Source of the DNA: Bacteroidales bacterium
GTDB taxonomy: Bacteria > Bacteroidota > Bacteroidia > Bacteroidales > JAAUTT01
Direction of reading: 5' to 3'
DNA length: 35,392 bases
Assembly (NCBI GenBank): GCA_025361285.1
Contig: JANYAP010000161.1
Coordinates: 1 to 35,392, forward strand
This document shows positions 9,748 through 30,147 of the stretch, in pieces; positions within the stretch are counted from its first letter, which is position 1; the number at the start of each line of letters is the position of its first letter. Position numbers and translations under genes: made by a program. The notes below the pieces were generated by a model, which saw only the letters and a program-made list of their open reading frames with translations, was not told the origin of the DNA and ran no database searches.

Positions 9748-10331
9748 ACTTTTTTTGTTTAAGTTACGTTAATAATGATATTGTTAATAGCTCATTTATA
9801 GTTGATATTGCACGTTTTAACATTATTGCAATTCGATATAGGAAGTTACAAAATGTTTTTAGATTAAACCACGCTCTCTATTAATATTTTTTAAAAATAA
9901 ATTATCAATGTAACAAATAATTTACATGTTATAAATAATTATACATACATTGCACTCACAAACATTACATTATATTAATTTGTATAACAAAAACCTTTAT
10001 TATTATATCAAAAAACAATTTTAAAGCGCAACAAAAGTACTTACTAACCAAGGTTTAGCAAGGAAAGTGGCTGAGAAGGTGAAGGGAGCGTAGAAGGGTA
10101 GATGTGAAAATGTGTAGATGAGGAAATGAGGAAATGACAAATTACAGATTTGTGATTGTTGTTTATGGAGGCGTTGTTGGCAAGCCGCCAAATAATCAAC
10201 TATGAGCATATCAACTTTGTTGTTAAATTGTTATAAATTGACATTGTTATACTTGTAACCAAATGATTTGATACTTGAATTGTTGAATAGTCATTTATAG
10301 CGTCATACCAAATTAATTATAATTAAAATAT
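9748..10331. other. Gene-poor AT-rich stretch
   Basis: About 580 bp with no supported gene. Positions 9775-10020 are extremely AT-rich. Positions 10065-10140 hold G/A-rich repeat-like sequence (GATGAGGAAATGAGGAAATG) related to the array at the window start. A 62-codon minus-strand frame at 10021-10209 is composed of the complement of these repeats and is not a credible gene. Confidence 0.7.
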
Positions 10332-10789: not shown

Positions 10790-11293
10790 ATGAAAATTGT
10801 TATTCTTGTAGCAATAACGTTAGCTTTAAGTGTAATTGTAAAGGCGCAAAACCTGCCAAAGCTTAATATATTTGCAGGTTATGGATTTTACGAAGCATTC
10901 AACTTGGGTACGGAATATACTTTTAAATCTCAACAACAATCAGTTAGTGTGTCAGTTGGTTACGCTAAAATGTATAAAAAACACAACAAAGCATTAACCA
11001 TGTCATATAATTTTGCCGTATTTAAACAATTCAATAACAATGTTGAAGGTTATAAATGGCACATTAATAATAAATTAGTTGCTTGGCAACTCGAAGACGA
11101 CTTTTACTTATGGAAAGCAATATCAATAATTCCTTCTTTGAATAGAAGTATCTTTTTTCAGCGAAGATTACACATTTCGGTAGATATTGGACCTTCCTTT
11201 AACATTATATTATACAGTAAGCGAAAGACATTTAGCGAATTAGGGTGGCCATATCATATATCGCCAAATTTCAGATTTTTATTTATTTATTAA
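10790..11293 (+). CDS. Small secreted beta-rich protein, unknown function
   Basis: A 167-residue protein with a clear signal peptide (MKIVILVAITLALSVIVKAQ). The mature part is rich in aromatic and alternating residues, for example LNIFAGYGFYEAFNLGTEYTF and SVSVSVGYAKMYKK, ending in the strand-like SPNFRFLFIY, which fits a small outer-membrane barrel. The terminal aromatic residue is typical for barrel insertion. No family is recognised. It lies between a broken gene and a dispersed repeat, in an accessory-looking region. Confidence 0.6.
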   Translation: MKIVILVAITLALSVIVKAQNLPKLNIFAGYGFYEAFNLGTEYTFKSQQQSVSVSVGYAKMYKKHNKALTMSYNFAVFKQFNNNVEGYKWHINNKLVAWQLEDDFYLWKAISIIPSLNRSIFFQRRLHISVDIGPSFNIILYSKRKTFSELGWPYHISPNFRFLFIY

Positions 11294-11382
11294 ATGAAAC
11301 ATTCATGTTAAACCTTAACGCACATGAAAATGATTATAATTTGGATGTTCCATCTGGCCTTAAAAAATATATAAACACATGA
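11294..11382 (+). repeat. Dispersed repeat, copy A, with coupled mini-ORF
   Basis: This segment matches the minus-strand segment 29548-29639 at about 80% identity over some 75 bp, including the identical 20-base core TAATTTGGATGTTCCATCTG at 11336-11355. Inside it a 25-codon frame (ATG 11305 to TGA 11382) ends in an ATGA overlap with the start codon of the GDPD gene at 11379. The mini-protein shares MLxLN and NLDVPSxLKK with the other copy. The nine bases ATGAAACAT occur at both ends (11294-11302 and 11379-11387), which could be a target duplication. Confidence 0.75.
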
Positions 11383-12239
11383 AACATAGTTGCATTGCAG
11401 TTGGTTTAATATTAATTATTGCATTATCGTGCAATAAAATTAAGTATTATCCCGACAAGGAATTTAAAGATATGAAAACTAGAATATTAGCACATCGATC
11501 GGGCGGTGGAGAAACTTCACCATTTAAAGAGTATTCAATTGGAGCATCAACTGCAAGTTTTAATATTGTTGACGGCGTTGAGGTTGACTTACAGATTAGC
11601 AAGAACAGAACTATATGGCTGGCTCACAACGTGGAACTGCCTGTGTGTGGAGGAGTAAACTATAAGTGTTTCCCCGAATGTTCCGACAATCAAATAATTA
11701 CCTTGGACACCTGTTATGGCTACTTGGTAAACTATACCAAACTTGAAGATATTTTTGCCGTCATGGCTTCGCATTATCCTAACAAATACATTTCATTAGA
11801 TGTAAAAGCTTGGACACCATGTTCAATAAATAGTGCAGGTATTACAGGAATGATGAATGCGATTGCCGATGCAATTATCAGTTTAACAATACGTTACAAT
11901 CTCCAACATCGTGTATTGGTTGAGTCGGAAACAGCATCATTCTTAACCTATGTTAAAAACCATTCCGATGGAATTGATTGTTACCTAACATCGCTAGGCG
12001 ATTTTGAGCGCGCAATTCAACTGGCAATAAAATCGGGGTACACAGGTGTTTCATTCAAATATAAATTCAAAGAAGAACTAAGCGCTGACCATATTCAATT
12101 ATTACGGCGAAAGGGGCTTAAAATACAGCTTTGGACTGTAAATTCAGTTGAAAATATTCGGCAAGCGCTATCAATTAACCCCGATTTTATTCAAACTGAC
12201 AATTTAGATTTTTTTTCAAATGATAAATATGCAGAGTAA
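11379..12239 (+). CDS. Glycerophosphodiester phosphodiesterase-family lipoprotein
   Basis: A 286-residue predicted lipoprotein: a hydrophobic N-terminus and a lipobox ending at C18 (IALSC) place it on the membrane facing the periplasm. The GDPD-type active-site residues are visible: H39-R40 in ILAHRSGGG, E68 and D70 in GVEVDLQIS, and H83 in WLAHN. The barrel ends with LKIQLWTVNSVENIRQAL and DFIQTDN, as in GDPD enzymes. The family hydrolyses glycerophosphodiesters to glycerol-3-phosphate and an alcohol; the exact substrate is unknown. The extra cysteines in the PVCGGVNYKCFPECSD insert suggest disulfides. The start codon overlaps the stop of a repeat-borne mini-ORF (ATGA). Confidence 0.85.
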   Translation: MKHSCIAVGLILIIALSCNKIKYYPDKEFKDMKTRILAHRSGGGETSPFKEYSIGASTASFNIVDGVEVDLQISKNRTIWLAHNVELPVCGGVNYKCFPECSDNQIITLDTCYGYLVNYTKLEDIFAVMASHYPNKYISLDVKAWTPCSINSAGITGMMNAIADAIISLTIRYNLQHRVLVESETASFLTYVKNHSDGIDCYLTSLGDFERAIQLAIKSGYTGVSFKYKFKEELSADHIQLLRRKGLKIQLWTVNSVENIRQALSINPDFIQTDNLDFFSNDKYAE

Positions 12240-12280
12240 TGATATATTCATCAATAACAATAATGAAGGGATAATGTCGT

Positions 12281-12435
12281 TTAACTAGTGTCTATCCATA
12301 AAGTGTAAAATCCTGACAGGTTTTGTATTTATTAAATCCTAGGTAATTTATAATTATCAGAGGATTTGCTTATTACCGAAAACCTGTCAGGATTAATTAC
12401 GCAAATTATCGACTTTACGGATAGACACTAATTAA
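12281..12435. mobile_element. MITE-like element, 155 bp
   Basis: The ends are 24-bp inverted repeats with two mismatches: 12281-12304 and 12412-12435, sharing TAGTGTCTATCC. Inside, a second, perfect 16-bp inverted repeat (AATCCTGACAGGTTTT at 12309-12324, complement at 12379-12394) encloses 54 bp. There is no coding capacity, as expected for a non-autonomous miniature inverted-repeat element. Both outer ends are TTAA-like, perhaps reflecting the target. It lies 72 bp before porX and may affect its promoter. I cannot name the parent insertion sequence. Confidence 0.75.
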
Positions 12436-12507
12436 ATAACTTACATATATTTTTTTACATAAGTTTATTATAACCCTCTTACAACTTGTTACTTACCACT
12501 TTTATTA

Positions 12508-22975: not shown

Positions 22976-23042
22976 TGTTGATTTTGTTTAAAATAATCTA
23001 AAATAAAACAAACAATTGTACAACTACAATAAAAATATTTTT

Positions 23043-23092
23043 GCCACAGATTCACAGATAATTTGATTGTGAGAAATCTGTGAATCTGTGGC
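23043..23092. repeat. Palindromic intergenic repeat (GCCACAGATTCACAGAT)
   Basis: A perfect 17-bp inverted repeat, arms 23043-23059 and 23076-23092, with a 16-nt loop. It lies between the end of ftsH and the start of cdsA. The plus strand is followed by a T-run, the minus strand by a weaker one. Similar CCACAGATT repeats are widespread in Bacteroidetes intergenic DNA; it may serve as a terminator after ftsH. Confidence 0.75.
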
Positions 23093-23163
23093 ATATTTTT
23101 TTTAATCTTTCGGTTTGAATTTTTCAAACACAAAGCGGAAGGATTGGCAAAATTTGCAATCAG

Positions 23164-27716: not shown

Positions 27717-29551
27717 TTTTTAGGGTATTTAAACGTTAGAACAAAATCCTCCATAGGCTTACGAGTTTGAGTGCCTTTAAGATACTTTTCAACCATAAGA
27801 CTAGCAATACGCCCTGCCCAAGTAGCGCCATATCCGGCGTTTTCAACAAAAACGGCAATGGCAATTTTAGGGTTTTCGCGTGGCGCAAAAGCAATAAATA
27901 CCGAATGATCCATTCCATGAGGGTTTTGTGCTGTACCTGTTTTCGCACACATATCAATACCAAGCGATTGCGTATTTACCCAATATGCAGTTCCACCAGC
28001 CTCATTTACAGCTGAGTACATACCTTGTACAATTACTCCGTAAGCCGCGGTATCAAAAGGTGTAATGTGTTTTTCCAAAAACCTGGCATCGATACCATTC
28101 CTGTTTTTTATTTTTTTTACCAAATGTGGAGTATAGTAATATCCTCTATTTGCAATAGTTGTAGCCATATTAGCCATCTGCAAAGGCGTTATACCAAGTT
28201 CGGCTTGCCCAATAGAAAGCGATATTACGGTACTCGATTTCCAACGGTTTTTGCCAAAAACTCGGTCGTAATAGCCCGATGATGGCACGTTTCCTGATAA
28301 TTCGTTCGAGATATCGGCATTAAACTTTTTTCCAAGCCCAAAGCTCATTACATCGTTACGCCAGAGATTATAACTTTGATTAGTAGATGAATACTTCTTA
28401 TTATCGAGAATATTTTTAAAAACATTGCAGAAATAGACGTTGCACGATTGCGAAACGGCTTGCAGCAAATTTAAGGTACCATGAACGTGTGTACATTTAA
28501 GAAGTTTAGCACCGCCATAATTATATCCTCCACTGCACGAATAACGGCTGTTAGGTAATAAAACACCTTCCTGCAAACCTATAAGCCCGTTTATAATTTT
28601 AAAAGTTGACCCTGGCGGATAGTTAGCCATTGCCGATCGGAAAAAAAGCGGTTTTTGTGGGTCGGTTTGTAACATGCTATAATTAGCTGCTCTGCTACGG
28701 CCAACCAATAAACCAGGGTCGAAAGTTGGAGTTGAAACCATTGCGAGAATTTCGCCCGTTGATGGCTCAATAGCCACGGCGCTTCCACGCATATTTTGCA
28801 TAAGAAATTCGCCGTATTCCTGTAAATTTGCATCGAGGGTTGTGGTTAGGTCGGCGCCAACAACAGCAGCGGTATCGGCACGACCGTTTAAAAACGAACC
28901 CTTAACTCGGTTATGAACATCTACAAGTAGGATATTAGTACCTTTTCGCCCACGCAATTCAATTTCGTAGGTTTTTTCCAGCCCGCTAATACCAATATAA
29001 TCGCCCATCTTATTGTACTCGTCCTTTCGTATTGCCGAGCTATCTACCTCACCAACATAGCCTAACAAATGTGCTGCCGTTTTATTGGCATATTTACGTA
29101 AGGTTCGGGTTTGTACAAAAAAACCAGGATACTTATATAATTTCTCGCCTAGAAGAGCATAATTCTCGGCCGACAACTGACTAACAAATAGCGAAGGTTT
29201 AAAAATATTGTTTGTTTTCGTTTTAACTTTCGATTTTCGTATCTTTAATCGTACAGCCTCTATCGACAAATTAATTAGCGAAGCAAATTCAATAGTATCA
29301 AATGTTTTTACCTCAATGGGGGTAATCATTAAGTCGTAAGCGGCTTCGTTAAAAACAATTAGCTTGCCGTTACGGTCGTAAATGAGGCCGCGTGCGGGGT
29401 ATTGCGTAATAAGTCGTCGGGAATTATTTTCGGCCGATCGCTCAAAGGAACGGTCGATAATTTGAAGGTAAAATAGCCTGAAAACGAATATTAACCCAGT
29501 AAGCACGAATATTGCCCCAACAATATATTTTCGGATTGCATACGGATTCAT
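27713..29551 (-). CDS. mrdA: Penicillin-binding protein 2, elongation transpeptidase
   Basis: A 612-residue class B penicillin-binding protein crosslinking peptidoglycan during elongation. One N-terminal membrane segment (about 8-30) anchors it in the inner membrane. The dimerisation domain begins SRRLITQYPARGLIYDRNG. The transpeptidase domain has S315-TFK (SxxK), S369-CN (SxN) and K537-TG (KTGTAQNP). The start ATG 29551 overlaps the stop of a 26-codon mini-ORF carried by a dispersed repeat. mreD lies 89 bp upstream and rodA overlaps downstream. Confidence 0.96.
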   Translation of the reverse strand: MNPYAIRKYIVGAIFVLTGLIFVFRLFYLQIIDRSFERSAENNSRRLITQYPARGLIYDRNGKLIVFNEAAYDLMITPIEVKTFDTIEFASLINLSIEAVRLKIRKSKVKTKTNNIFKPSLFVSQLSAENYALLGEKLYKYPGFFVQTRTLRKYANKTAAHLLGYVGEVDSSAIRKDEYNKMGDYIGISGLEKTYEIELRGRKGTNILLVDVHNRVKGSFLNGRADTAAVVGADLTTTLDANLQEYGEFLMQNMRGSAVAIEPSTGEILAMVSTPTFDPGLLVGRSRAANYSMLQTDPQKPLFFRSAMANYPPGSTFKIINGLIGLQEGVLLPNSRYSCSGGYNYGGAKLLKCTHVHGTLNLLQAVSQSCNVYFCNVFKNILDNKKYSSTNQSYNLWRNDVMSFGLGKKFNADISNELSGNVPSSGYYDRVFGKNRWKSSTVISLSIGQAELGITPLQMANMATTIANRGYYYTPHLVKKIKNRNGIDARFLEKHITPFDTAAYGVIVQGMYSAVNEAGGTAYWVNTQSLGIDMCAKTGTAQNPHGMDHSVFIAFAPRENPKIAIAVFVENAGYGATWAGRIASLMVEKYLKGTQTRKPMEDFVLTFKYPKK

Positions 29552-29639
29552 CTGCTAATAATTTGTTTTTTAAGGTCAGATGGAACATCCAAATTACTAT
29601 CATTCCATTGAGTGTTAAGTTTTAGCATGGATGGTTCAT
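29548..29639 (-). repeat. Dispersed repeat, copy B, with coupled mini-ORF
   Basis: On the minus strand this matches 11294-11382, including the identical 20-base core TAATTTGGATGTTCCATCTG. A 26-codon frame, ATG 29628 to TGA 29548, ends as ATGA overlapping the mrdA start. Its product (MLKLNTQWND, then NLDVPSDLKK) aligns with the copy A peptide with only a one-codon length difference. It fills the mreD-mrdA gap, which in many relatives is short or absent. Confidence 0.75.
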
Positions 29640-29640
29640 A

Positions 29641-30147
29641 TTACCGTTTTACCATAAAAAGTTGACTTAATAGGATGATAACCAGCGTAAACATCGAACT
29701 TAAAATTACCCTTAGCATTGTAGAAAAAAACTGATGAAATTTGAACGTTTCGATGAAAAATAAAGCAAAATGATGTGTAACAACCATAATAACAGCATAT
29801 TTCATAAACCATTCCAAGCCAAAATACTTAATTCGTGGTTCGGTTCCGCTGTCGTAACCTTCGCGGGGGGCAATTAGTTTGAGTAAATACGGGCGAAAAA
29901 ATGCTACCAGTACACATGCAAACGCATGCATACCAAGTGTATTCGAAAACAAATCGATTGTTATGCCAAGAGAAAATGCCAACGCCAACATTAACCATTT
30001 AGGAGTTTCGAATGGCAGCAGTAAAATAAATAGTAAATAGAAATATGGATTTATGTACCCGCTTAACTCAACGTTGTTAAGGATAAGAACTTGCAAAAGT
30101 ACAAGTCCAACAAAATTGAAAACGTGTTGGTAAACTCCTCTAATCAT
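29641..30147 (-). CDS. mreD: MreD, rod-shape-determining membrane protein
   Basis: A 168-residue integral membrane protein with about five to six hydrophobic segments, the size and composition expected of MreD, which links MreC to the elongation machinery. Sequence similarity in this family is weak, so the call leans on position between mreC and mrdA; segments such as NPYFYLLFILLLPFETPKWLMLALAFSLGITIDLFSNTLGMHAFA are typical of the Bacteroidetes version. It overlaps the end of mreC by 8 bp. Confidence 0.9.
   Translation of the reverse strand: MIRGVYQHVFNFVGLVLLQVLILNNVELSGYINPYFYLLFILLLPFETPKWLMLALAFSLGITIDLFSNTLGMHAFACVLVAFFRPYLLKLIAPREGYDSGTEPRIKYFGLEWFMKYAVIMVVTHHFALFFIETFKFHQFFSTMLRVILSSMFTLVIILLSQLFMVKR

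Follow-up and report, generated by a model that had tools for sequence, protein, structure and literature searches.

A short dispersed repeat, present twice in the window (the whole stretch of 35,392 nucleotides of a Bacteroidales bacterium analysed here), is very probably a small non-autonomous mobile element of the Bacteroidota, similar to REPs and MITEs, that inserts before ATGAAA. Its mobility is supported by empty sites, near-identical copies, tandem units and a patchy distribution. The combination of a start-codon target with a single shared guide is unusual for a non-autonomous structured mobile element.

The two copies in the window are inverted with respect to each other, at 11294-11372 and 29561-29639, where 79 nt are 81% complementary. 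The initial annotation had described a dispersed pair of about 80% identity, and this is confirmed: the identity is 81% over 79 nt, including an identical 19-nt core (AATTTGGATGTTCCATCTG), and copy B was recovered with E = 2e-15 in a whole-genome search with copy A. The 3-nt difference in length and the two mini-ORFs that it had noted are also present in the sequence of the window. The features are assigned as follows.

11294..11378, + strand: copy A, 85 bp, covariance-model match with E 3.5e-11; it lies between a 167-aa ORF, the stop codon of which ends at 11293, and a GDPD-type lipoprotein ORF at 11379-12239.
11294..11305, + strand: 5′ end of copy A, ATGA followed by the arm AACATTCA, the 5′ arm of stem 1 (from the sequence and the family alignment).
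11342..11353, + strand: 3′ arm of stem 1 of copy A (TGGATGTT), a conserved C, and the CAT common to stems 1 and 2 (from the sequence and the fold).
11354..11381, + strand: stem-2 region of copy A, comprising CTG, the A-rich linker, CAC and the start codon ATG.
29552..29639, − strand: copy B, 88 bp, covariance-model match with E 3.9e-11; it lies between a 168-aa ORF ending at 29641 and mrdA (PBP2), the start codon of which is at 29551 on the − strand.
29628..29639, − strand: 5′ end of copy B, ATGA followed by the 5′ arm of stem 1 (ACCATCCA).
29580..29591, − strand: 3′ arm of stem 1 of copy B (TGGATGTT), the conserved C and the shared CAT.
29549..29579, − strand: stem 2 of copy B, comprising CTG, the A-rich linker, and CAG plus ATG, the mrdA start codon.

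The element is bounded on both sides by ATGAA(A), and the ATGAAA at the 5′ end of copy A is a repeat of the target sequence. Copy B occupies the mreD-mrdA junction, exactly before the mrdA start codon, and retains a 6-bp stem CATCTG/CAGATG that closes over that codon. Copy A is one of the few in which the stem-2 match is lost, its CTG and CAC being non-complementary.

The window contains other repeats. A 16-bp tandem repeat (AATGAGGAAATGTGAG) occupies 1-104 at the contig end, and a related G/A-rich repeat is found at 10093-10148. Imperfect inverted repeats with arms of 31-32 bp lie at 12280-12436 and 23029-23106 (TTTAACTAGTGTCTATCC...; CCACAGATTCACAGAT...), and may represent further small elements of palindromic type.

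Copy B is a clean insertion. Comparison of mreD-mrdA junctions, fetched with a PBP2 query, shows that the insert is missing from all four sampled congeners (G001-G004). In G001 the mreD stop is followed immediately by ATGAATCCGTATGC, the exact start of mrdA, so that AAAACGGTAGT is joined directly to ATGAATCC; in the window's genome AAAACGGTAAT is separated from the same ATGAATCC by 88 bp, and the junction is longer by that amount. Empty sites exist also in genus g99, where some sites occupied in G102 are empty in the sister species G201 and G285, their limits being less exact than at mrdA because the flanks have diverged. A further site (L260/L306) is occupied in two species. The arm sequences differ at this orthologous site, and the NN pairs match in each (GTG/CAC and ATG/CAT). 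It is either an old common insertion or the result of two independent hits; a copy common to two species with compensatory changes may be present here, and this could mean host selection on the structure. No target-site duplication varying with the target was seen at the loci with variant boundary letters (L084, L086, L075, L090, L166 and L144), where the variants are unmirrored on the other side. There may be an invariant duplication of ATGAA.

How widespread is the element? Within the window's genome the search with copy A gave strong further copies at C173, C180 and C63 and two in tandem at C10, together with a decayed copy at C91; a covariance model added C196 and some weaker copies, and at least eight copies are clear. 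The first family alignment defined the unit as running from ATGAAAC to a CAC or CAG that immediately precedes another ATGAAA. The length ranges from about 80 to 130 bp and the architecture is fixed. Where copies are in tandem this second ATGAAA opens the following unit, and the junction is shared. Near-identical copies are abundant within a genome, and exact duplicates are found at different genes. Of 295 genomes sampled in the order, 117 have at least one match and several have dozens; G188 has at least 140 copies at E ≤ 0.001 when the best 150 candidates were scored. Across the phylum 19 of 395 sampled genomes have matches, including closed genomes with at least 10 copies. A pattern scan of ~85,000 prokaryote species returned at least 119 stretches, and several of the counts given here are of copies selected by pattern. 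Among the matches listed in that scan the titles are those of Bacteroidota (Bacteroidales, Flavobacteriaceae, Chitinophaga/Niastella, Saprospiraceae and others), with one exception, the unclassified ‘Bacterium BMS3Abin03’. No copies were found in the viral contigs and plasmids searched. The window has no match in Rfam 15 at the gathering score, and with E allowed up to 5 no Rfam family overlaps a copy at any of six loci. A search for half elements or longer gene-bearing versions gave five candidates lacking an intact 5′ ATGAA, all of which are chance matches or decayed copies. We found no description of such an element in the open-licence literature.

The element is placed with precision. Its 3′ boundary is ATGAAA, and position 6 is A in 91% of copies, whereas 48% of the gene starts of G188 that read ATGAA have A there. 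On the upstream side of the insert no motif is conserved, and all that is seen is the A-richness usual ahead of genes. The initial annotation had the element inserted just ahead of genes, and dozens more copies occupy the same position with respect to the start codon. Using simple ORF calls, which make the counts approximate, 87 copies are at a gene start, 29 are intergenic and 7 are in coding sequence; the corresponding numbers for 2416 background ATGAAA sites are 316, 374 and 1726 (start versus intergenic, p = 6e-9). The copies are strongly depleted in genes and enriched at starts, from which it follows that selection acts against gene disruption and that there is a preference for start codons in addition. 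The preference over intergenic ATGAAA exceeds what target choice plus selection against disruption would give, and is not fully explained by them. Of 20 copies in the closed genomes G493 and G398, 16 are followed by an ORF of >100 codons. At L170 and L191 ORFs starting inside the element are continuous, in frame, with the next gene (MRVPSDRFNTNYLQMK...), showing that insertion can also add an N-terminal extension.

These data bear upon the suggestion of the initial annotation that the repeat could be a control cassette. A host cis-regulatory cassette, whether leader RNA or translational coupler, retained at certain genes by selection, would have a fixed position at the start codon, a hairpin over that codon and an A-rich leader, all of which are seen here, and would also explain a retained orthologous copy with compensatory change, as is possible at L260/L306. 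However, the genes downstream are unrelated, and include mrdA, an RHH antitoxin, a photolyase-like gene, lipoproteins, an argininosuccinate-synthase-like gene and TonB receptors. In addition the sites are empty in congeners, a quarter of the copies outside coding sequences are away from gene starts, and the frame of the mini-ORF is not kept. We consider such a cassette very improbable, and the data fit instead a mobile element with the target ATGAAA, tolerated at start codons. Every copy supplies an A-rich leader as well as a hairpin over the start codon, and could therefore plausibly affect translation.

All copies have two covarying stems, both of which use one central CAT. Stem 1 has the form ATG.AAC(nn)(n)CA / TG(n)(nn)GTT.CAT, in which the CAT pairs with the 5′ ATGAAAC of the element. 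Positions 7-8 of this stem switch together; in 195 copies they are GA/GA in 88, AT/AT in 42, AG/CT in 4, GC/GC in 4 and AA/TT in 3. The A.C at position 3 was fixed by the search pattern. In stem 2 CATNNG pairs with CNNATG, which includes the downstream start codon. With copies chosen blind to the 3′ end, CTG is found with CAG in 65 and GTG with CAC in 28, with no crosses between them; CCG/CGG, ACG/CGT and ATG/CAT pairs also occur. Neither this covariation nor that of positions 7-8 was built into the search pattern. In folds of individual copies there is further pairing within the inner part, around a conserved loop CACACA(A/C)G. The initial annotation had favored a DNA or RNA element over a peptide, and this is upheld by the conserved base pairing together with a reading frame that is broken in several copies.

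Which strand is structured? The GA/GA combination is a tandem sheared G.A motif on the gene-sense strand, where the opposite strand would read TC/TC, and the gene-sense strand is therefore the likelier to be structured. The argument for the strand rests on these mismatches because both strands fold with energies that beat those of shuffled sequences, about equally. A bias to the sense strand would also be expected of an RNA-level element, in which a sense RNA with an internal guide is excised or reverse-spliced, or copied by a reverse transcriptase. One central sequence that pairs with both junctions is reminiscent of intron guide sequences, and excision would give back the original start of the gene. 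Yet there is neither a catalytic core nor an Rfam match, and no reverse transcriptase recurs nearby; to our knowledge all self-splicing introns are far longer than 85-130 nt. We think an RNA-level process very improbable.

Copies A and B contain frames of 25 and 26 codons that overlap the next ATG, as would a coding-sequence remnant or a translated family of small peptides. This reading can be practically discounted. The frame is broken by an in-frame TAG in the copy at C173, the distance from core to start codon is distributed near uniformly modulo 3 (65/60/52), an ATG frame of at least 15 codons is present in 36 of 177 copies, and the pairing is conserved rather than the codons. A conserved small peptide is rejected on these grounds, and the 25- and 26-codon frames are incidental. 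What would have refuted the initial annotation, copies scattered at random about start codons or a lack of relatives with empty sites, is not what is observed: the place relative to the start codon is constant and empty sites exist. The mini-ORF with its ATGA overlap is not a kept feature, being free to change in length and frame and interrupted in several copies. What the architecture yields more often is a potential frame of four codons that starts at the first ATG of the element (MKHP*, MKRP* or MKRA*), and TGA is the fifth codon of that frame in 79 copies. In the linker ahead of the start codon A makes up 60% and G 4%. This is the composition expected where translation begins in the Bacteroidota, a phylum reported not to use Shine-Dalgarno pairing (PMC3155529, PMC9976891). 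Since the linker conforms to the start regions of the phylum, the filled gene is probably still translated from its new leader.

What moves the element? One possibility, which we hold tentatively and on balance find unlikely, is that an HUH-Y1 transposase acts in trans on what would be a REP-like or palindrome-associated element from the world of IS200/IS605 and RAYT. The strand concerned would be that reading TTTCAT followed by CNNG...GTTTCAT, with ATGGAA as the guide. In its favor, the insertion abuts a short fixed target without clear duplication and the end of the element is the target sequence; an internal sequence pairs with both candidate cleavage sites, as do the guides of IS200/IS605 (PMC6006769); in the Bacteroidetes there are Y1 subclasses whose cognate repeats are ‘atypical’ or not known; and most copy-bearing genomes tested have a Y1 gene. 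Against this, copies do not flank the Y1 genes, those inspected having palindromes of other kinds beside them (such as CCTCTACGAGG or CTCGGTCCGAGCT), and three genomes that carry copies (G004, G066 and G481) have no Y1_Tnp match, although loss after spread is possible. On the strand favored by the G.A mismatches the target is 3′ of the insertion, the mirror of IS608, and a GTAG or CGTC tag is absent. As a linked mobiliser the Y1 transposase is rejected, with no linkage in 24 genomes and the three copy-bearing genomes lacking a Y1_Tnp match. Scanning the Y1 loci of element-bearing genomes revealed copies near just two (L060 and L354), apparently incidental, and no longer, gene-carrying version of the element around them. 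Nor is there a recurrent mobility gene among the neighbours of the copies, which are just TonB receptors, sigma factors and other common families. An integron attC site is suggested by the AAC/GTT resemblance and was rejected, since the boundaries appear to lie off any GTT crossover.

Some Y1 genes have other repeats beside them. In G002, two genes of the Y..NQ..HH type (L043 and L051) adjoin repeated palindromes containing CCTCTACGAGG; for its Y1 subclass 1.2, PMC6006769 reports no associated repeats. In G188 a gene of the YIHYNP type (L131) is flanked on each side by one and the same structured repeat (ATGAAACAGGCTCG(G/A)TCCGAGCT...), which is likely to be a REP-like element belonging to that gene.

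We propose that one strand of the mobile element, probably the gene-sense strand, folds into an irregular hairpin during transposition. The internal TTCCAT would act as a guide, pairing with ATGAAA at the left boundary, the right boundary and the target, in a manner resembling the pairing of guide and cleavage site in single-strand transposons; the nearest known parallel is that of IS200/IS605 elements and REPs (PMC6006769). The mobilising enzyme would act in trans, from a gene at another place in the genome. Insertion would exchange the translation-initiation region of the gene and leave the protein intact, since the insert stops right at the start codon and brings a leader of 17-40 nt that is rich in A and poor in G. 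In many copies the old start site would be left as a short upstream reading frame (MKHP* or MKRP*, for example), and the CATNNG/CNNAUG hairpin may cover the start codon and tune expression. That this is a phylum-wide class of element, in which one guide reads ATGAAA at both ends, the mobiliser falls outside the known REP and IS partners, and leaders are rewired without damage to proteins, is a broader proposal that we advance with considerable doubt. If it is true, the Bacteroidota carry a ‘leader-swapping’ element that enters the starts of ordinary and essential genes, such as mrdA for the elongation PBP2, and each insertion is a natural experiment in translation initiation. It raises the question of which enzyme moves a structured element of 85-130 nt that reads ATGAAA by base pairing.

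How does the element compare with known systems? Like the leader RNAs and riboswitches of Rfam it is a structured sense-strand element directly before start codons, but it has no Rfam match, its downstream genes are unrelated and its sites are empty in relatives. It shares with the classical MITEs (those of Cardinium, and BOX and RUP of pneumococcus, PMC3049150) a small size, multiple copies and a lack of autonomy, and differs in having neither IS-type terminal inverted repeats nor a variable target-site duplication, and in its exact placement at ATGAAA. The Cardinium MITE derives from IS982 (PMC9769881), and is different from this element. The ends of IS200/IS605 and the palindrome-associated miniatures similarly have a subterminal hairpin and a short fixed target adjoining, and an element end that is the target. 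The sequences also point to a guide-like pairing of the IS200/IS605 kind, in the covariation of CATNNG/CNNATG and in ATGA-AAC/GTT-CCAT; in IS200/IS605 the pairing described is between the guides and the flanking tetranucleotide (PMC6006769). In contrast to IS200/IS605, a single hairpin and a single guide serve both ends of this element, the target is on the 3′ side of the gene-sense strand, and no autonomous parent is seen. The REP and REPIN sequences (RAYT, TnpA_REP, HUH-Y1) are likewise short, structured, dispersed and mostly extragenic, with tandem clusters and no gene of their own, and for both we assume mobilisation in trans. The GTAG-24 REPs also have GA mismatches inside their stems (PMC3733652). 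Unlike a REPtron, the copies do not flank Y1 (tnpA_REP) genes, and in place of the GTAG or CGTC tag by which REPs are defined (PMC3733652, PMC6006769), absent from the consensus, there is a conserved boundary ATGAAAC...GTTCCATNNG. The present element differs from REP and REPIN further in its length of 80-130 bp, its two stems sharing one guide, and its fixed ATGAAA target at start codons.
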